Source of the DNA: Pirellulales bacterium
GTDB lineage: Bacteria > Planctomycetota > Planctomycetia > Pirellulales > Lacipirellulaceae
Assembly (NCBI GenBank): GCA_022448265.1
Contig: JAKVCC010000010.1
Coordinates: 1 to 64,000, forward strand
Direction of reading: 5' to 3'
Length of the DNA: 64,000 nt
The position numbers were made by a program, and so were the translations under genes. This document shows, one piece after another, positions 1 through 55,598 of this stretch. Numbering within the stretch: position 1 is the first letter of the stretch; every line of letters starts with the position of its first letter. The notes beneath the pieces were generated by a model that saw nothing but the letters and a program-made list of their open reading frames with translations, had not been told where the DNA came from and did no database searches.

Positions 1-93
1 CTTAGGCTTCGTGAACCATTGGACAACAAATCGGGCCTCTCCACCTCGGCGGTGGAGAGGCCTTTTTTTATTGGGCCCCACCCCGGATCAACA
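1..93 (+). repeat. Exact 93-bp repeat, copy 1 (truncated by window edge)
   Basis: These 93 bases are identical to 52838-52930, where the sequence follows the stop codon of a PEP-CTERM gene and contains its terminator. Beyond base 93 the copies diverge, but a short shared stretch (ctcgcggc) recurs in both about 12-20 bases later. The copy begins at the window edge, so the upstream gene, probably another PEP-CTERM protein, lies outside and cannot be seen. Confidence 0.95.
34..69 (+). terminator. Intrinsic terminator, copy 1
   Basis: A perfect 12-bp stem (ggcctctccacc pairing with ggtggagaggcc) with a five-base loop is followed directly by seven T. This is a strong Rho-independent terminator for a plus-strand gene ending before the window. 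An identical element stands at 52871-52906. Confidence 0.9.
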
Positions 94-173
94 GAAAGCT
101 GTAGATTCTCGCGGCGCCTGTCTGCTAGGCTGGTAGGACTGCTCTGGTACGTCCACCACTAACCGCACAACTA

Positions 174-8892: not shown

Positions 8893-10329
8893 TCAATCAG
8901 GCGATTGGCCGGGGACCGATTGCACCATGCTTGCGCGGCGCACGGGGCGTGCCGGTTGCGCTTGTTGCAAACCACTCGCAGTCCGCTGGGCCGACCAACC
9001 CTGGACGCGTCGGGCTGTGGTGGAATAGCTCTCCGAGAGAGGATGGCTCCGCTCCATTGAAGCTCGCCAGCGTGGCTCGGGTTTTGGGGCCGCGTCGCGG
9101 GCTGCCGCTGGTCGTAGACTGTTGAACTCCAGCTCAGAATGTGGGAGACGGCTTGGGGTCGACTCAATATCTACGGGCGCAAGGTCCACTTTCGGATCGC
9201 TCAACTCATGCATCTCTGCCAAGGGGAGCTGTGCCAAGAGTGGCTTCTCTTCAGTCACGTTCTCCTCCATCGGAGTAGCATTGCCGATCGCTGGCAGTCC
9301 CTGCGGGTCGAACAGAAATTGTGTGAACAGTTTTCCGCCGTCTGGTGAGACCAGCCGTACCCAAAGTTCCAAGCCGGAATTCGGAAGTGGCGCATCTCCC
9401 AATGGCAATTCCAGGTGCAGGCCGTCGCCCAATGCTGAAGACTGCCAGGCGGTGGTGGTTTCTTCGCCCGTAAAGTCCCACCGCCTCAACCGCTTCGGAG
9501 ACTCAGGGTCGGCAGTCATTACCATCAACGAAACTTCGCCTTCCAGATCTACCGGTTCGTCTTTGGAGTCGCGTGCCTCCACCACAGCGAGCAGGCTGCC
9601 GGGGTGTTCCGAGTCGTCAGTGCCTCGCAAAAGCTGAGCGACAATCAGATTCTCAGCAGACCGGTCGTCAACGGTTGGTGGCTCCAGGTCAATGTTGCGG
9701 TGGTCTTCGCTGACCGCTTCGCCAACGGAATCATCGGCCGATATGGCTAATGGAGCATCTGCAAACTGTTCGTCGTCGCGGTAATCCCCTTCCACGTCCT
9801 GCGCGAAATGAGCCGGATCAGGAACGAATAACACCTTCGCTTCGAGTGAGCGCGGCTCATGATGACCCGCCTGGACGACGCGAGAATCGGGGGAACTCCA
9901 CGCATTGTTTCCTACCGGCTCACTGATTTCTAGGTCGGGGATATTGAGGTCCTCAGGCTCCTCATCAACTGGCTCCTCATCAACTGGCTCCTCATCAACT
10001 GGCTCCTCAACGACTGGCTCCTCAACAGTGGGACTTTCTTCTTTCTCAGTTTCGGGGTCGTTGACCGGCGCCAGCGCCTTGGCATCAGAATAGATAACTG
10101 TTTCGCCATGATCGACGCAGCGACATTGCCTCAATTTATCGGAATACGTGACAACATACTCTTCCAGCTCGTAGATATAGTCTTCCTGAGACCGTAATTC
10201 TCTCTCCAAAATGTCGATCTGGTTGTCCCTTGCCGAGCGACAACCACTCGATGCCACTAACAAGCAGCCGGACACGGCGAACACCAGCAGCACGCTGCTG
10301 GAAGGGCTATTTCGAGGAAGTGTAGACAT
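8893..10329 (-). CDS. Lipoprotein with acidic EEPVD repeats
   Basis: A roughly 478-residue protein that I do not recognise. The frame is open to 10506, but the double ATG at 10332/10329 begins a classic lipoprotein signal (hydrophobic stretch, then cysteine after VSG or SSG), so the start is placed there. After the cysteine comes a predicted coiled coil (DILERELRSQEDYIYELEEYV), an acidic segment with repeated EEPVD units, and a C-terminal region of moderate conservation. It should be anchored to a membrane in the periplasm. It ends convergently 91 bases from gap; only a weak GCCT/AGGC hairpin stands between. Confidence 0.75.
   Translation of the reverse strand: MSTLPRNSPSSSVLLVFAVSGCLLVASSGCRSARDNQIDILERELRSQEDYIYELEEYVVTYSDKLRQCRCVDHGETVIYSDAKALAPVNDPETEKEESPTVEEPVVEEPVDEEPVDEEPVDEEPEDLNIPDLEISEPVGNNAWSSPDSRVVQAGHHEPRSLEAKVLFVPDPAHFAQDVEGDYRDDEQFADAPLAISADDSVGEAVSEDHRNIDLEPPTVDDRSAENLIVAQLLRGTDDSEHPGSLLAVVEARDSKDEPVDLEGEVSLMVMTADPESPKRLRRWDFTGEETTTAWQSSALGDGLHLELPLGDAPLPNSGLELWVRLVSPDGGKLFTQFLFDPQGLPAIGNATPMEENVTEEKPLLAQLPLAEMHELSDPKVDLAPVDIESTPSRLPHSELEFNSLRPAAARDAAPKPEPRWRASMERSHPLSESYSTTARRVQGWSAQRTASGLQQAQPARPVRRASMVQSVPGQSPD
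9956..10030 (-). repeat. 15-bp tandem repeat, five units, inside the lipoprotein gene
   Basis: Three identical units (ggctcctcatcaact) at 9956-10000 are followed by two variants (10001-10030). Each encodes five residues of the EEPVD type in the lipoprotein. The unit length is a multiple of three, so change in copy number keeps the frame. Confidence 0.9.
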
Positions 10330-31807: not shown

Positions 31808-32477
31808 CGACCTCCCCGCAACTTCCCTCCTACCCGAATGGGCGAGTCCAACAATGAGAAGATGTCATGTACTGAGAGGTAGGATGGTAGTAGCTCCTCG
31901 GTCCGCAGATCGTGGTTAGCAACAACTTACTGCTGCTCTAAAACGCTAAAGCAGGCCGGATAGTCGGCCGCCCGGATCTTGCCACCTATGCTATGCTCTG
32001 CCTGACCGGAATTGAAAATTCCCTGGCACCAAAAAATCGTTTCATCGCCATTGCAGAGCAAATCCTCACTTGCTGCACACTAAGACAACTGGTCACCTCT
32101 TCAACAAAAAATCCCAAAGTCAGGTTAGACTGATGCTGCGCAAGAGCTAAGCTCACAAGAGTTGCGTTGTGCTGTTCAAGCTGCCAATGGCTCCGAGGAA
32201 GTCACTTGCTCTCCGCGAGGGAATTTTTACCTGCATCAGGTCGTGCCACCATTGCTAGTCTTTGGTACAAAGGGGTCGCAGCACTGGACTGCCTCTTCAT
32301 TGTGGAATTTCTGTAAGCGGGAACAAATACACCCGCTTGCCACGGCAGAGGTCGTTTACCAAAAAATGAACTGTGAAGACCCGCCGCAGAAATTGGCCGC
32401 ACTAGGATCGACAGCGGCTTCCCGGAAGATTTCCCCAGACTTGGTATCCTCGATTTTACTCGCCTAGAAATATCGCC
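31808..32477. other. Intergenic stretch after the nonulosonate operon
   Basis: About 670 bases before trpC. A 101-codon frame (32162-32467, +) and an antisense frame over trpC have no recognisable domain and no ribosome-binding site. No clear terminator with a T tract was seen after legB. The trpC promoter should lie near the right end. Confidence 0.45.
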
Positions 32478-33263
32478 ATGCCAGAAACCATCCTTGACAG
32501 AATTATTACGACGAAACGCCAGGAGGTTGAACAGGCTCGGGCCCTTGTACCGGGTACCGAGTTGCGAAAACAGATTGAGCAGGCGGACCCACCCCTCAGT
32601 TTTTTTGAGGCACTGGCCCGGCCCGGGCCGATTCGCCTTATCGCCGAAGTCAAGAAAGCCAGCCCTTCGGCAGGCGTAATCCGCGCGGACTTCGACGCGG
32701 CAGCGATCGCCCGCGCTTACGCGGATCATGGTGCCACCTGTATCAGCGTGCTGACGGATGAGAAATACTTTGGCGGAGGGCTGCATCACCTCCGACAGGT
32801 GCGTGCGGCAGTTGCCTTGCCCCTGCTGAGAAAAGATTTCATCATTGATAGCTACCAATTACTCGAAGCCCGGGCAGCTGGTGCTGACGCGGTACTGCTA
32901 ATCGCCGAATGCCTGGATGATTGCAACTTGCGAAAGTTGCACAATGAAGCGGTCGAACTGGGCCTGACCCCATTGGTAGAGCTCTATGACCGGGCGAATC
33001 TGAAGCGTGTACTCGATGCCGGGGCCTCACTGGTTGGGGTCAACAACCGGAATCTTCATACATTTGAAGTGGATCTGAAACACGCGCTCCGCATGCGAGA
33101 CGAGATTCCCAACGAGTGCTTGTTGGTCGCGGAGAGCGGCATCAAAACGCGTGCAGACGCAGAGCAACTTGAAGCCGCAGGCGTCGAAGCGATGCTCGTA
33201 GGCGAAACGTTGATGCGTTCGCCGGATATTGGTACGGCTGTCCAAGGACTGCTAGGCCGTTAA
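32478..33263 (+). CDS. trpC: Indole-3-glycerol phosphate synthase
   Basis: A 261-residue TIM-barrel enzyme of tryptophan synthesis that closes the indole ring from carboxyphenylamino-deoxyribulose phosphate. The motifs IAEVKKASPSAG (catalytic lysines, near residue 55-66), LTDEKYFGG, LLRKDFIID, VGVNNRNLHTF and VAESGIKTRAD are all present. Length is normal and it is monofunctional. No other trp gene is adjacent. Confidence 0.96.
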   Translation: MPETILDRIITTKRQEVEQARALVPGTELRKQIEQADPPLSFFEALARPGPIRLIAEVKKASPSAGVIRADFDAAAIARAYADHGATCISVLTDEKYFGGGLHHLRQVRAAVALPLLRKDFIIDSYQLLEARAAGADAVLLIAECLDDCNLRKLHNEAVELGLTPLVELYDRANLKRVLDAGASLVGVNNRNLHTFEVDLKHALRMRDEIPNECLLVAESGIKTRADAEQLEAAGVEAMLVGETLMRSPDIGTAVQGLLGR

Positions 33264-34126: not shown

Positions 34127-34636
34127 TCAACTCGTCTGCGCGGAGGAATCTAGGTACGCCATCGCCTGGCGCGCCAGTGCCTGACGCGCTTCCCGGAACA
34201 TCAGCTCCCAATCCTTCTGCAAAGTCATCTCCGACAAGTAAGTCCATACGCCCAACTCGCGCGCCCAGACTTCATCGACAGCACGTCCTTTTTCCACAGA
34301 CACGACCATCAAAGCTTTACTGGTTTCTTTCGCCCACGATGCCGCCGCACGAAACTCGCGATAGTTGGCCGACGCAAACGGCGGCAGATCAATCAACAGC
34401 AATGGGTGCTTTTGTTTAAAAATGTTTCGCATAAATTGCCTGGTACTCGAGCAAGCAATGGCTTCCCACGCCTCTGCCTCAGCGGCGGCCTGGACCATGC
34501 CAATGCATGGATCAGAATCTGAAACGAACAGGCAGCGCAGCAAGCCTGGGGGTGCAATTTTTTTCTTCGCAACCAGTCTTTGGTTCTTCCGGTCTCGAGA
34601 CCGCGCTGAGTCTGTATGTAAATGAGTAGGTGGCAC
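34127..34636 (-). CDS. Receiver-like (CheY-fold) protein of unknown function
   Basis: A 169-residue protein. After about 35 basic N-terminal residues, the sequence reads like a divergent response-regulator receiver: LLRCLFVSDSDPC as strand 1 with acidic residues, LLLIDLPPF as strand 3 with a possible phosphoacceptor Asp, and LMVVSVEKG as strand 4. The conserved lysine is not clear, so phosphorylation is doubtful. The GTG at 34636 is preferred because AAGGA stands seven bases before it; a TTG at 34651 would add five residues. It lies 1.1 kb downstream of a sigma-54 activator that lacks its own receiver, but a link is only inferred. Confidence 0.65.
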   Translation of the reverse strand: MPPTHLHTDSARSRDRKNQRLVAKKKIAPPGLLRCLFVSDSDPCIGMVQAAAEAEAWEAIACSSTRQFMRNIFKQKHPLLLIDLPPFASANYREFRAAASWAKETSKALMVVSVEKGRAVDEVWARELGVWTYLSEMTLQKDWELMFREARQALARQAMAYLDSSAQTS

Positions 34637-35756
34637 AATATCGTCCTTCAAATAAATGTTTTTCGTATTCTCGCCTGCTACACAAATGCTGCACGAACAA
34701 CATTAGGAGCCGGAGAGCCTATAGCCTTACTGAAACCTCCGGATTGCGATTCTTCGTTCGTATTGCAACGCGCAAACTTTGCGACACGGCTTCCCAGAGC
34801 AACTACCTATACAGGGTCCAGCTCGGGCGGTCCGCAAATCATCGCACACCGCTACCACGACATCTTGCGCTTGTGACGACGATGAATGCCGTTCACCGAC
34901 TGTGGGGTCTTGCCACGACGACGACCGTGGGATGGACTACTTCGTTTGGCCGGCTTATTGCGAACTGTGCGGCGAAAACTGTCTGTACCGTAGTCCGCTT
35001 GCAACGCTTCATATATTTGGGAATGGCTCATTCAGTGTTTCTCCTATTCAATACAAAAAATTTGGGGCCCTAACCCCACAAAACTTGACGACTTCGGCAC
35101 TCGCCAAAATCACGTTTCCACTCTCAGTCCGCCACGCCTCAACCAATTGTCGACTGAGGCAACCGATAAGCGACACGGATACGTCACAAAGACGAGACCA
35201 GTCGTTTCACCTGTGTCTCTGAAACAAACCGAGAGTCGCCTTTGCTTAAAGCGATTACTGTGCCGAACTAGAGTTCCGACCACGAAATGCTTGTAAGCGC
35301 TTTCCGCTAAAGCGCTTATGTGATCGCGCCGGGACGCGCAGCGGCAGCGCGCAGAATCACCAAACTAGGGATCACTTCTTCACCTCCATGGCCATTTGGT
35401 CCGCTTCATAAAGAGCCGCGGCGAGTGATTCACTCTTTTGGTTAGATCTCACCACAATGATGGACGTATCAACGCAAGAAACGCGATGCGGAGTACGCGC
35501 AGGGGAGGCGGCACGGGACGGTTGAGGGTGAGGGTGAGGATGGAGAGCATCCGAGAATTGAGAGGTGCACAGCTTGGAAGCCAGGTCTCTCAGCTGTTTG
35601 AGAACCCATCCCAACGGGATCGGCCATAGCCATAATCGAGTGATTCCTGCCGCCCCAGCCTAGGCGTCGAGTCCATACTCCAAAAGGAACCACGCAGCAA
35701 CCTGGCCGCAGAAGCCACAACGGTCAACAGCGTCGCAGGCAATCCAGTGGCAAGAA
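34637..35756. other. 1.1-kb stretch without a convincing gene
   Basis: No frame here has a recognisable domain with a ribosome-binding site. An 80-codon minus frame (35372-35614) ends in a plausible helical sequence but is His/Pro-rich in the middle and probably chance. The stretch holds a strong hairpin at 35294-35318 and many short repeats of the taagcg/aaagcg type around 35245-35320. Confidence 0.45.
35294..35318. other. Perfect 10-bp inverted repeat
   Basis: The arms taagcgcttt and aaagcgctta pair perfectly around ccgct. A related half (gcttaaagcgat) occurs about 45 bases upstream. There is no T tract. It could be a protein-binding operator or an RNA hairpin. Confidence 0.6.
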
Positions 35757-51296: not shown

Positions 51297-51879
51297 CTTC
51301 CACCTACCTCTTCTGCGGACCAATTCATGCCAACCCAAATAACAAAAATAGGCACCTGCAAGCAGTCGCCGCCAGGGACTGGCAGGAAGAATCTCGGTAG
51401 ATTTTTCCGATTATTTCAATTTTCCTGATTGGGCTGGACCTGCGGGCCCGATAAGGACTGCGAGTAGTTTTTTTTTCGGGAAGGGCTCCCGAGACTTGCT
51501 GAATGAGAACGTGCCAAAACGGGCTTGCCGCAACGCCGTACCCTTCAGTTCATGTCAATCATCTTAGGCGCCAACCTCTAGGGAAAGATCGTTATATTTG
51601 GCCACTGTGGCACTACCGCTACGCTGCAAAAACGCATCCTGATGCCTGAAATGAACACAGCGCACCTCTCGGACTCTCGTGGCGCCCTCGCATAATCGCC
51701 TGCCACACCAACCGCATCGTAGCATTTCCCCCCCAGTGGGCAACGCGCGGCACGCATCTTGCAGTAGAGGCAGAAGAGTCGCAACAAGCGATCTGAAAAA
51801 ACAACCCGTACTAAACACATCTTTAATTCGTTGGCCGGCGGCCCACCAGCCTAACCGGCCATGACACTCAACTATAGAG
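51297..51879. other. Intergenic stretch before the PEP-CTERM gene
   Basis: About 580 bases. Short frames on both strands lack domains. A run of nine T (about 51469-51477) and the gene promoters may lie here; nothing else is clear. Confidence 0.4.
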
Positions 51880-52164
51880 GTCCGACTCATGAAGTTACCA
51901 CTGGGCTCCCCGGAAAAAGCGACTCACTCTAGCAGCTGAGTGCCTTCCGGGAACCTGAGGAGCGGCCTGGAACTTCCCAGATCGCCCTCGAAAAACCAAC
52001 CCGTGCCAAGCGATCCTTTGGCAAGGCCGGTCGGGACGACCGCCCCATCGCTGGGCCGCAGGATGCTCACCAAGGTAACACTTACGTTTAACATTTTGTT
52101 CAGTTTTTAGTTCATTGCGAGTGGCACCCCCGGTGCCACCTCAACTTTTTTGGAGATACTCACT
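51880..52164 (+). promoter_or_regulatory. Structured leader of the PEP-CTERM gene, with terminator-like hairpin
   Basis: Several perfect stems follow one another: cccggaa/ttccggg (about 51911-51955) around cact/agtg, a long-range ctggg/cccag, tgccaa/ttggca (about 52006-52024), and cggtcg/cgaccg around gga (about 52030-52044). Near the end, gtggcacc/ggtgccac around ccc (52121-52139) is followed by tcaac and six T, and then directly by the GGAG of the gene. This is the layout of a leader with a regulated terminator. I could not match it to a known riboswitch. Alternatively, tggcac and gtgcc at 52122-52137 have sigma-54 -24/-12 spacing. Confidence 0.5.
52121..52151 (+). terminator. Terminator-like hairpin just before the PEP-CTERM ribosome-binding site
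   Basis: A perfect eight-base stem (gtggcacc, ggtgccac) with loop ccc is followed by ctcaac and tttttt. The T tract is six bases from the stem, so as a terminator it is imperfect. The GGAG of the gene begins at 52152. Confidence 0.5.
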
Positions 52165-52824
52165 ATGAAGAATCTTTTCCTTGCAGTACTGATCGCCTTG
52201 TCCACTTCGCTCACCGCTATGGCTGGCGTGCCCTCGACCCAGTTTGTCCAGATTAATACCGGGACATTCGATAATGCTGGGCTGGCAGGCTTCTCTACCT
52301 GGGCCATGCGAGTTACAGCCGACACCGACTGGACCAACGCCGACTTGGATATCGAGCTCACCAGTGGAACGATGAACCACATCGCGCCAGCGTTCCTTGG
52401 CTCACCCGAGGGGACCGGTGGTTTTGGCGATACAGCCGGCTTGGCGCCTACGGTGGTCAACGGTGACCTGACGGGGGGTTTCAATGGCACCTACTCCAAC
52501 GCCTATCATTATGAGTCTGCGACTGAGTTTGTGTCGAAATGGTTTACCACTGAAAATGACGACATTGGCACGTTTGACGTCGCCATGATCACCATTTCCG
52601 ACGACGCGAACGGAGCCTTGAGATTTCGTACGCTTGCCGGAGCGGACGCGGATGCATCAACCTGGGACCCAAAAGATCCGGTCACCGGAGACAGAGCCGG
52701 TGGCATACCTTTCATTGCGATTACCAACGGCATCATCGGTGTCCCGGAGCCGACCAGCCTCGTTATGGCCAGCCTGGGCCTGGTGGGCTTGTACGGAACG
52801 CGTCGTCGTCGTCGCCGCGCATAA
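52165..52824 (+). CDS. PEP-CTERM sorting-domain protein
   Basis: A 219-residue secreted protein. A signal peptide (MKNLFLAVLIALSTSLTAMA) is followed by a beta-rich body of about 165 residues and, at the end, a PEP-CTERM signal: VPEP near residue 191, a hydrophobic segment and a run of seven Arg residues. Exosortase should cut there and attach the protein to the surface matrix. The body is a planctomycete type I cannot name. The ATG at 52165 follows GGAG. It ends before a strong terminator whose sequence is identical to the start of the window. Confidence 0.9.
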   Translation: MKNLFLAVLIALSTSLTAMAGVPSTQFVQINTGTFDNAGLAGFSTWAMRVTADTDWTNADLDIELTSGTMNHIAPAFLGSPEGTGGFGDTAGLAPTVVNGDLTGGFNGTYSNAYHYESATEFVSKWFTTENDDIGTFDVAMITISDDANGALRFRTLAGADADASTWDPKDPVTGDRAGGIPFIAITNGIIGVPEPTSLVMASLGLVGLYGTRRRRRRA

Positions 52825-52837
52825 CTTGACAGCGAAG

Positions 52838-52930
52838 CTTAGGCTTCGTGAACCATTGGACAACAAATCGGGCCTCTCCACCTCGGCGGTGGAGAGGCCT
52901 TTTTTTATTGGGCCCCACCCCGGATCAACA
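52838..52930 (+). repeat. Exact 93-bp repeat, copy 2
   Basis: Identical to bases 1-93. It begins within 15 bases of the PEP-CTERM stop codon and includes the terminator. This suggests the window start lies just after a similar PEP-CTERM gene. Confidence 0.95.
52871..52906 (+). terminator. Intrinsic terminator of the PEP-CTERM gene, copy 2
   Basis: Twelve-base perfect stem with a five-base loop, then seven T. Same sequence as at 34-69. Confidence 0.93.
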
Positions 52931-53054
52931 ACAACCAGCAAACTCTCGCGGCAACTGTACTCTACATATTTCAGAGTATAGAATAGACTTCACATATTCC
53001 TGTCTGCCCGGATCAGCGCCGAATGAAGCCGGGCTTCGAATTTTTTAGAACAGC

Positions 53055-53936
53055 ATGTGGAACCCTCAAATGCATCTGTTTTTTCGCAGTTCTGCCCTGA
53101 TTGTCGCTTTCATGCTGGCGAGCACTGTCTCCGCGGTTCCGGTTGATCTGGGCATAGCGGGCCACTACACGATATTGGGTGCTGGTGTAACAACTTCCAC
53201 GAGTCACTACGCGGGCAATCTGAGCCTAGGCTCTGAAGCACACGTCTTCGGTTCGGCCGGTGGGCGTAACGTTGTCAATGTGGCCCCCAGTGTTCAGGTG
53301 GATGACGATCTGAGTGGTGGCCACATCAACGCCAGCCTCGACTTGATTGTGGGCGGGACCCAAGCGGTGCTTTCTGAGGGAGAATGGAGCCTTATTCATC
53401 AAGACATGATAGACGCCTCAGCGGAGGCGGCCGATTTGCCCAATCAAACTGCGTTGAGCAACATCAGTGGCTCGACAGTTTTGAGTTCTACCGGTTCAGC
53501 CCTTTCCGTATACAACGTCACGGGCGCTATTTTTCTGGGTGCCGCTGATGTCTTAACTATTAGCGGGAGTACCAGTGATGAGTTCGTCATCAATGTCGAC
53601 GGGGGCATGAATCTGGCTTCTGGTGCATCCATTGTGATGTCGGGTGGTGCTCGACCTGAAAACGTTCTTTTCAATTTTACGGGTGGAGGATTCGGTGGCC
53701 CGGCGTCGATCATCGGCGCGACCACCTTCAACGGAACCTATCTCGCACCCTATATGTATTTTCAGATCGGGGATGGCGCGATCATGGATGCAACCCGAAT
53801 CCTGGCTAGCGGTATCCAGGGGAATATCCAGGACATTACGCCTCCGCTACCGATTCCGGAACCCACCACCGCGATTTTGCTCGGACTGGGTCTGGCCGTC
53901 ATGGGAATGAAAATGACGAAGGGCCAAAGACGCTAA
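53055..53936 (+). CDS. PEP-CTERM protein with choice-of-anchor/ice-binding-like body
   Basis: A 293-residue secreted protein. A signal peptide (hydrophobic region ending TVSA) leads to a beta-rich, Gly/Ser/Asn-rich body with VPVDLGIAGHYTILGAGV, ISGSTVLSS and VLFNFTGGG, which resembles choice-of-anchor A or ice-binding (DUF3494) proteins. The end has IPEPTTAILLGLGLAVMG and a basic tail, a PEP-CTERM signal. Exosortase processing and a surface role are inferred. ATG at 53055 or 53070 are both possible; the second has GGAA before it. Confidence 0.85.
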   Translation: MWNPQMHLFFRSSALIVAFMLASTVSAVPVDLGIAGHYTILGAGVTTSTSHYAGNLSLGSEAHVFGSAGGRNVVNVAPSVQVDDDLSGGHINASLDLIVGGTQAVLSEGEWSLIHQDMIDASAEAADLPNQTALSNISGSTVLSSTGSALSVYNVTGAIFLGAADVLTISGSTSDEFVINVDGGMNLASGASIVMSGGARPENVLFNFTGGGFGGPASIIGATTFNGTYLAPYMYFQIGDGAIMDATRILASGIQGNIQDITPPLPIPEPTTAILLGLGLAVMGMKMTKGQRR

Positions 53937-54113
53937 GCCAAAAAGATGCGTCGCGGTCACGCTTAGAAGAACCGAGTCCGTGATTTTGCGACTTGACGTT
54001 AAAACCAAGTCCTCTTCAAAACCAGGGGGCGTCTAGTTCCCTGATCGCCCCTCTGACTAACCCACTTTGCGGCGTCCCTCCTCCCGCACCCGCTGCGATC
54101 AAAGCTGAACTGA

Positions 54114-54303
54114 TCAAGCGAAATCGATCACTGAACGGATCACCTTGCCATCTTTCATGGCCTAAAACGCGTCGTCGACCTGCTAGAGCTTGATGTGCTG
54201 AGAGATCATGTTCTCGAGATCCAGCTTGCCAATTTTCCACATGCGGAGCAATTTCGGCATAAAGGTTCGAACGTTGGCACCTTCCATCCATGGAGCCGAC
54301 CCA
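54114..54303 (-). pseudogene. Remnant of a zinc-dependent alcohol dehydrogenase, C-terminus
   Basis: On the minus strand the frame reads EGANVRTFMPKLLRMWKIGK, then LDLENMISQHIKL, TAG, QVDDAF, TAG, AMKDGKVIRSVIDFA and TGA. This is the C-terminal end of a medium-chain zinc alcohol dehydrogenase (the Y/MISH..L..INEAFDAMRxGKVIRSVI pattern). Two in-frame TAG codons and the missing first 300 residues show it is dead. Confidence 0.8.
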
Positions 54304-54307
54304 CGAG

Positions 54308-54401
54308 GGCAACCGCGGACCTGCTGCCCACGTTGGCTTCCATGGCCACGGCAGGAATTCTGCTGTAGATGGCCATGATGCATTTTTTGCGGGCATCTCT
54401 A
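54308..54401 (+). pseudogene. Decayed copy of part of the HTTM gene
   Basis: These bases match 605-699 of the HTTM gene at roughly 85-90 percent identity (my count by eye). Where the gene has CAG (Gln), the copy has TAG, and one T is missing from the T run, shifting the frame. It reads ATADLLPTLASMATAGILL, then TAG, then MAMMHFLRASL. It borders the alcohol dehydrogenase remnant. Confidence 0.85.
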
Positions 54402-54506
54402 TATAAGCCGATTGAGGGTCGAGTCGAGCGCACAAAAAAACAGGTGGACAACCTGGGGCTGAATTGCTTTGGGTACCGCAACACTGGCAAACCGGCCGAG
54501 TTGACC

Positions 54507-55598
54507 TTAGTACTCGGAATCGTCCAGCGGCGGGTTCATGAATTCAAGAGGGGCGTATTGGTTGGGAGCAAACTGACTAGGAGCCGCCTTGGCCCCGTTG
54601 GGCGTCATCAACTGCTGGTAGACGCGATAATCGATGTTTTCGTTGATCGATTTGGTATTGCCGCCGGCGAATGCGACAATGAATATTTCTGGGTGCTCGC
54701 TAGCGGGACGCATGAAACGTGTATAGCGAGATGCACTTTCGGCACCGTAGTCTGCGTTCCGGTCACTCCCTGTTCGATCATCGCGATTAAATCGTTCGCA
54801 AATCTCAGCCGGTGGAGTGAGCGAGTTGCCGTCATAGACCCACACCATACCAAAACGTTGCTCAGGATTTGTCTGCATGTCGGCCTCGGTAAGCGGCAGC
54901 GTGACATCGATCTTGAGCGGTCCCAACCAGGTGCTATTCTGCCCGCCACACTGATGGGCCAATTCATCCTTGTGGATATTTTCGGAGACCAGCAGGGTCG
55001 TGTTGGCACCGTCCTTGATATCAGCACCGTAGCGCACCGCGGGTCCATTCCGAATCTTGCGCAGGTCGTGGCACAGGCCATTGGCTCTAAGGTCGCTAGG
55101 CGGACCTCCTGACAGGTCCAACGGCGGTGCCGGCAAGTCCTCGACACCTGCATTGACCACATACGTAAGACCGGCCACCTTGGGATTTGTCCGCGCGTCG
55201 CTTGGGCAGAGATAGAAATCTAGTTTGGGCGGGTTACTATAATCAAATGCGTTGCTACTAATTAACTGGTCCCATAGCCCTTTTTGATCGAGACGCGGTA
55301 GCAACTTGGCAGCCCAACTCACAGGGATCGATCCAAAGTTCGATCCAAAAAGGGCTTGAGCAGCGGCGGGCCCCAGCTTTTGATCTTGAGCCCAACCGGG
55401 AAAAACTCCCTTGCCCTCGGTGGCATAGCTAATCATCGCCTTGGCTATTTGGCTTTGGTTGTTATTGCAAGTCAGTTGCCGTGCCCGTTCGCGGGCGGCG
55501 TTCACCGCCGGCAATAACAGTGCCATCAATAGCCCGATAATAGCGATAACGATTAGGAGTTCCACAAGCGTGAAGCCGCGACGAGACGAAGTATTCAT
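54507..55598 (-). CDS. DUF1559 protein with prepilin-type N-terminus
   Basis: A 363-residue protein. The start [20 protein letters not shown] is a type IV prepilin/pseudopilin signal: cleavage between Gly and Phe with Glu at mature position 5, then a hydrophobic helix. The rest fits the planctomycete-expanded DUF1559 family (C-terminal SBP_bac_10-like part, with [19 protein letters not shown]). Such proteins are numerous in planctomycetes and of unknown role, perhaps pseudopili or surface fibres. The ATG at 55598 follows GAGGAGG; the frame upstream to 55775 is a shadow. Confidence 0.92.

Follow-up and report, generated by a model that had tools for sequence, protein, structure and literature searches.

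The 93 bases that occur twice in the window, the stretch of 64,000 bases analysed here (G000:C2:1-64000, that is, contig C2 of the draft genome G000), most likely mark where a second, near-identical copy of a PEP-CTERM gene ends, a copy that was split by the assembly. The repeat is genuine and its cause rather ordinary, very probably a recent second gene copy, and from the sequence comparisons we put the probability that this copy arose by recent copying within the genome at about 0.7. A hidden second gene copy, if true, would correct the local assembly. We read the repeat as one case of a general sharing of PEP-CTERM modules at the DNA level in G000, and this modular copying of genes is the most worthwhile part of the analysis, more than the 93-base repeat.

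Extent and gene context of the 93-base repeat

Alignment confirmed that positions 1-93 and 52838-52930 are identical base for base, without any mismatch, as the original prediction had claimed. The weaker similarity described behind the repeat was found as well. Identity falls abruptly from 100% to 19 of 28 bases at 94-121 (+), which gives 112/121 for the whole block. The two copies had been placed at both ends of the window; the second one sits 11 kb inside it and not at the right end. In the whole draft genome (3,640,095 bases, 87 contigs) the repeat has an E value of 1.2e-42, and the search for extra copies gave, besides the pair, no match to the 93 bases longer than 29 bases. Base 1 of the window is the first base of contig C2. 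The left limit of the first copy is set by this assembly edge, and its true left border is hidden.

The repeat is not a noncoding element that stands alone; it has to be described as the downstream end of a PEP-CTERM gene unit. Copy A of this unit, in the outer limits common to copy B (52058-52930, +), consists of the gene with 107 bases in front of its ATG and 106 bases behind it that include the terminator; 52058-52180 matches the end of contig C87 and 52838-52930 equals window 1-93. The gene (52165-52824, +) encodes the PEP-CTERM protein P0002 of 219 aa, whose C-terminal tail exceeds the curated cut-offs of both PF07589 (23.8 bits, cut-off 20.7) and TIGR02595 (21.1 bits, cut-off 16) and whose N-terminal start is hydrophobic, as judged by eye. 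By family, P0002 is presumably an exosortase-sorted surface protein. A fold model built without alignment reached a mean pLDDT of 35.3 and was unusable.

Just 5' of the presumed ribosome-binding region, a hairpin followed by a T run is seen at 52121-52139 (+) from folding and reading of the sequence. The terminator predicted within the 93 bases is real. In copy A it spans 52871-52906 (+) with arms at 52871-52882 and 52888-52899, and the region 52825-52930 folds with -43.3 kcal/mol (z -4.28). The 3' end of copy B at the edge of C2 (1-93, +), a downstream region matching 52838-52930 exactly, carries the same terminator at 34-69 (+), with hairpin arms 34-45 and 51-62 in the same letters as the arms at 52871-52899, and seven T. 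The shared limits 52058 and 52930 fall just outside the upstream hairpin with its T run and the terminator, respectively. Rfam gave nothing in 51300-54600 up to E 0.1.

A probable second gene copy at a contig gap

A PEP-CTERM gene to the left of the window, as originally suggested, is probable. The end of contig C87 contains the upstream region and the first 16 coding bases of such a gene, and the start of C2 contains the terminator. Over its last 122 bases (C87:198257-198378), C87 is 99.2% identical to window 52058-52180; the only difference is an indel of 1 base, and substitutions are absent. Over the 216 positions of A that are visible in B, the two copies therefore show no substitution and one indel, a deletion in copy B at 52103 that is absent from copy A. 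The exact identity of A and B may be inflated by the collapse of graph bubbles. Among the 20 contig ends examined, only the C87 end and the C2 start carry an exact end repeat of at least 20 bases within the 1.35-Mb G000 pool (1,348,409 bases, 37% of the genome).

The exact run measures 77 bases at the C87 end and 93 bases at the C2 start. A k of 77 is a default of SPAdes and may apply to G000. A break at the first 77-mer that two copies of a longer repeat have in common would leave an exact 77-base run at the contig end, as seen in C87. Since the run at C2 is 93 and not 77 bases long, a further difference is needed just to its left. Copy B may thus differ from A immediately left of the 93 bases, comparable to a related copy on contig C1 of genome G021, in which the alignment shows an inserted C at this place.

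We infer from these ends that C87 and C2 are adjacent, that the PEP-CTERM gene 52165-52824 has a second copy (B) between them, and that this gene fills the approximately 657 bases lost in the gap. The coding sequence of copy B could be another one, the middle being absent from the assembly. When stretches of 40-80 kb from five congeners were compared for groEL synteny, none of the genes in the initial 30 kb of C2 was matched near groEL at E 1e-20. In the congener G004, two adjacent C2 genes (32418-33260, 66% at the amino acid level; 34130-34681, 35%) match about 16-19 kb from groEL, which weakly supports the adjacency of C87 and C2.

Origin of the second copy

Copy B is adjoined by a gene for an HTTM-domain protein with MORN_2 repeats (174-2231, +; Pfam PF05090, E 1.8e-12, and PF07661, E 1.8e-9). 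Downstream of the copy A unit, alignment revealed a 97-base relic of the HTTM gene (54308-54404, +) that is 88% identical to 605-702. HTTM sequence thus follows both copies in the same orientation. Copy A is also followed by a gene for an ice-binding-like PEP-CTERM protein (53055-53936, +; PF11999, E 1.6e-9), and it is preceded by a fragment (51366-51576, +) 85% identical to C78:26224-26019, which in C78 is located around the start of another ORF (L030 8372-10033, minus strand). By eye, the minus strand of 54100-54300, beside the HTTM relic, resembles what is left of a disrupted alcohol dehydrogenase C-terminus, and this region has the appearance of a patchwork of gene fragments. A 15-base tandem repeat occurs at 9956-10030.

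The original prediction named a recent duplication or gene conversion as possible causes, and both are compatible with the data. The most likely route would start with an older block duplication of the unit together with the HTTM gene, and copies A and B of the unit would later have been homogenised by ectopic gene conversion. A conversion between older duplicates is suggested by the absence of mismatches in 93 bases followed by 9 mismatches in 28, and by the 88% identical HTTM relic near A. If the 12% divergence of the relic reflects the age of the duplication, the chance of 0 changes in 93 bases would be about 7e-6 (0.88^93), neutrality being assumed. As in ectopic gene conversion, A and B share a near-identical tract with an abrupt edge within older, weaker homology; this change of identity inside homologous DNA is seen on the right side only. 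Unlike in that process, the left edge of the tract is without older homology, as no similarity between the A and B loci was found left of 52058, and the middle of B is unseen.

The dissimilarity left of 52058 would also fit a simple recent duplication, in which the unit was inserted once at a new site without gene conversion and the HTTM relic goes back to a separate event. This possible alternative shares the core of the preferred reading, and the other copied fragments that surround A (51366-51576 and 54308-54404) speak for it, but an older block common to both loci is suggested by the weak 28-base homology that follows base 93 and by the presence of HTTM sequence behind each copy.

An artefact of assembly or strain mixture, with one copy per cell, is unlikely. 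Both visible ends of B do coincide with contig edges in a draft genome of 87 contigs. A double placement of reads at such an edge, the artefact considered in the original prediction, hardly agrees with the different unique DNA found next to the repeat at each of the two contig ends, and the deletion at 52103 is present in B but not in A. A strain mixture in the MAG G000 is a conceivable source of apparent copies.

It had also been proposed that the repeat belongs to a conserved cassette moving with PEP-CTERM genes. This was borne out in part: what has been copied is a gene together with its control regions, and further PEP-CTERM modules of the genome are copied as well. A self-inserting, transposase-less cassette with its left end near 51780 or 52058 and its right end near 52930 or 53049 would explain the sharp borders in three contexts (A, B and G021:C1) and the similar ends of tail modules in several genes. 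Such self-mobility is nevertheless improbable, since the borders vary between the copies and an inverted-repeat scan of 51560-53080 gave no pair linking the left and right borders; two imperfect pairs touch 52058, with their partner arms upstream at 51634 and 51835. Terminal inverted repeats as in transposons or MITEs were not found at the common ends, nor was an empty site of the unit. Neither a recombinase nor an integrase domain was detected in the nine window ORFs scanned. P0002 had no match in plasmids and viral contigs, and the unit none in phages. As direct repeats, 1-93 and 52838-52930 could in principle allow recombination over the intervening 53 kb.

A third copy on a contig binned with another genus

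A family search with window 51500-53100 as query gave matches in three of 43 genomes, G000, G021 and G039 (65 bases, 77%). G021 is the Pirellulales MAG ALOHA_ZT_43, filed under another genus than G000. The stretch 51780-53049 (+) is 98.2% identical to positions 1-1268 of its contig C1 (JAKVCB010000001.1). On the left, this contig ends; past 53049 the similarity stops and G021:C1 continues into unrelated DNA. Only five bases separate this point from the start codon of the gene 53055-53936. Copy A and G021:C1 differ at 23 of 1,270 bases, 12 in 660 coding and 11 in 610 noncoding bases. The differences are equally frequent in both, so that an unusual constraint on the 93 bases is not indicated. 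Within the 216 positions visible in B, G021:C1 differs from A at 3, and it also has the extra base immediately left of the 93 bases.

Among the codons of the gene, 3 synonymous and 6 non-synonymous differences were counted, and three of the six are clustered in 8 bases (52553-52560). The residues encoded there are E-N-D in copy A, A-A-G in G021:C1 and A-G-G in a paralogue (58%) on contig C3 of G000, and copy A is therefore probably the changed one. Of 396 genomes of the order, two (G000 and G021) gave relatives of P0002 at E 1e-10. Among 392 genomes sampled from the phylum, G000 was the only one among the matches listed; G021 was not among the genomes shown there.

Tetranucleotide usage links G021:C1 to G000. 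The rest of the contig has a distance of 0.102 to G000 and 0.148 to six other G021 contigs, compared to 0.092-0.104 among pieces of G000 and 0.122-0.143 among pieces of G021. With 14-kb pieces, the distances of the two parts of G021:C1 are 0.124/0.125 to G000, 0.159/0.169 to G021 and, for five congeners, 0.147-0.213. When the G000 set was enlarged, the distances to it were 0.137/0.133 for the two parts, 0.155-0.203 for pieces of G021 and at most 0.173 for pieces of G000 itself; some C15 and C18 pieces of G000 (0.173 and 0.160) are as unusual in composition as the nearest G021 pieces (0.155). G021:C1 also contains two copies of a G000 tail repeat family (see below), and the contamination of the G021 bin is listed at 6%. 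Most of the contig has no close match in G000: none was found for 10.7 kb, and elsewhere the matches listed comprise tail copies and short repeat-type matches. Judging from tetranucleotide usage and the common tail copies, G021:C1 was probably misbinned and comes from a near relative of G000, not simply from the same strain. A horizontal transfer of the unit between the two genera could account for 98.2% identity over 1,270 bases, compared to 65-66% in the purH region between G000 and G021 (mostly 69-74% to four congeners), and for the restriction of P0002 relatives to these genomes among the 396 of the order, but it is very unlikely, being undercut by a composition that is that of G000 rather than of its own bin, by the two copies of the G000 tail module and by the contaminated bin.

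Shared tails and modules of PEP-CTERM genes

The repeat family consists of the DNA of the PEP-CTERM tail, [VI]PEPHTLLLASLASMGLTLRRRRSAR, with the stop codon and about 8 further bases. A consensus search located the tail at 10 places, of which 8 belong to the G000 pool and 2 to G021:C1, a contig covered by the segments L017 and L028. Seven tails are near full length, that on C26 is cut at the 3' end, C15:39391 is a 57-base remnant and C15:31661 is degraded (87%). Pairwise comparison showed near-identical tail DNA with unrelated flanks at six G000 places (L083:3182-3275, L084:3206-3305, L085:3306-3392, L086:2846-2938, L087:2922-3007 and L088:2782-2845).

The hosts of the tails include, by eye, RCC1-like repeats and a dockerin-like module with DLGILLAAF repeats, Pfam giving only PEP-CTERM for three hosts with the latter module. 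On C17 the host is a 420-aa ORF with weak, repeat-like Pfam matches besides PEP-CTERM. At C4 and C15:40918, no more than 24 and 32 codons in front of the tail are open. In pairs among 9 of the 10 places, near full-length copies of the 81-base tail from different hosts are 90-99% identical, and the value is 81-86% when C26 or C15:31661 is involved; the 40-base flanks are 15-40% identical. Near full-length tails differ by 0-4 synonymous codons out of 26. The hosts on C17 and at the G021:C1 locus share an additional 86-base segment (80%) away from the tail and are thus not wholly unrelated beyond the compared 40-base flanks.

Modules in front of the tail are shared as well. C26 matches C15:17926 at 109/120 positions before the tail and at 23/69 past the VPEP codons, and C15:45163 at 102/120 and 25/69; for C17:15129 and C4:71588 the values are 98/120 and 21/69. 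With C18 and C8, which carry the same tail as C26, C26 agrees at 58/69 and 59/69. Tails and modules appear to switch partners at or near the PEP codons, a junction that alignment does not place more finely, the PEP codons being conserved anyway. It is a doubtful extension that the genome reshuffles its exosortase surface proteins at the DNA level, with a tail cassette of about 88 bases, which begins at the VPEP codon and ends shortly after the stop, and preformed gene units copied to new places, the PEP codons serving as exchange point and new surface proteins arising by exchange of tails and modules. A change of partners at the PEP codons in near-identical DNA would explain lineage-specific, fast-evolving tails, and DNA-level sharing of tails, if true, makes the mechanism testable in a cultured relative.

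Modular expansion of PEP-CTERM is known at the protein level. P0002 resembles the described PEP-CTERM/exosortase proteins (TIGR02595, PF07589; Haft et al., 2006, PMC1569441) in its tail, which lies above both cut-offs. In contrast, copying at the DNA level, of a unit with its control regions and of tails with few synonymous differences in unrelated hosts, is not described in the available parts of that paper. Ice-binding proteins of marine MAGs are, according to the accessible sections of PMC9957290, of secreted type, some with a PEP C-terminal motif, and occur in variable domain combinations. The likeness extends to this mixing of domains, but shuffling is deduced there from domain architectures and here from DNA junctions. 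A literature search, with many subscription papers outside its scope, gave among the papers listed none recognised as describing DNA-level swaps of PEP-CTERM modules.

Dispersed repeats in G000 and a congener

Dispersed repeats were defined by at least 88% identity over at least 50 bases and, if on one segment, a distance of at least 2 kb. For the G000 pool, C17, C8, C18, C4, C15 and C26 had been chosen for their tails and C2, C87, C3 and C78 for matching the unit or its surroundings. The pool contains 20 dispersed-repeat intervals, 16 of which are PEP-CTERM DNA, a proportion that is biased towards tails by the choice of contigs. Eleven intervals touch the 23 PEP-CTERM genes found by a regular expression (3.3% of the pool), which misses unusual tails; five are B ends or orphan tails and four touch no known PEP gene, these nine being grouped by hand. 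Without the six tail-chosen contigs, 8 intervals are left, 4 belonging to the A/B repeat and 4 not PEP-related. In 640 kb of the congener G006, with 24 PEP-CTERM genes (8.1% of the pool), 2 of 7 intervals touch such genes, and the pattern is therefore not shown beyond G000 and its near relative. G006:C1 carries a 645-base repeat of 99.8% identity at 1920648-1921292 and 2014384-2015028.
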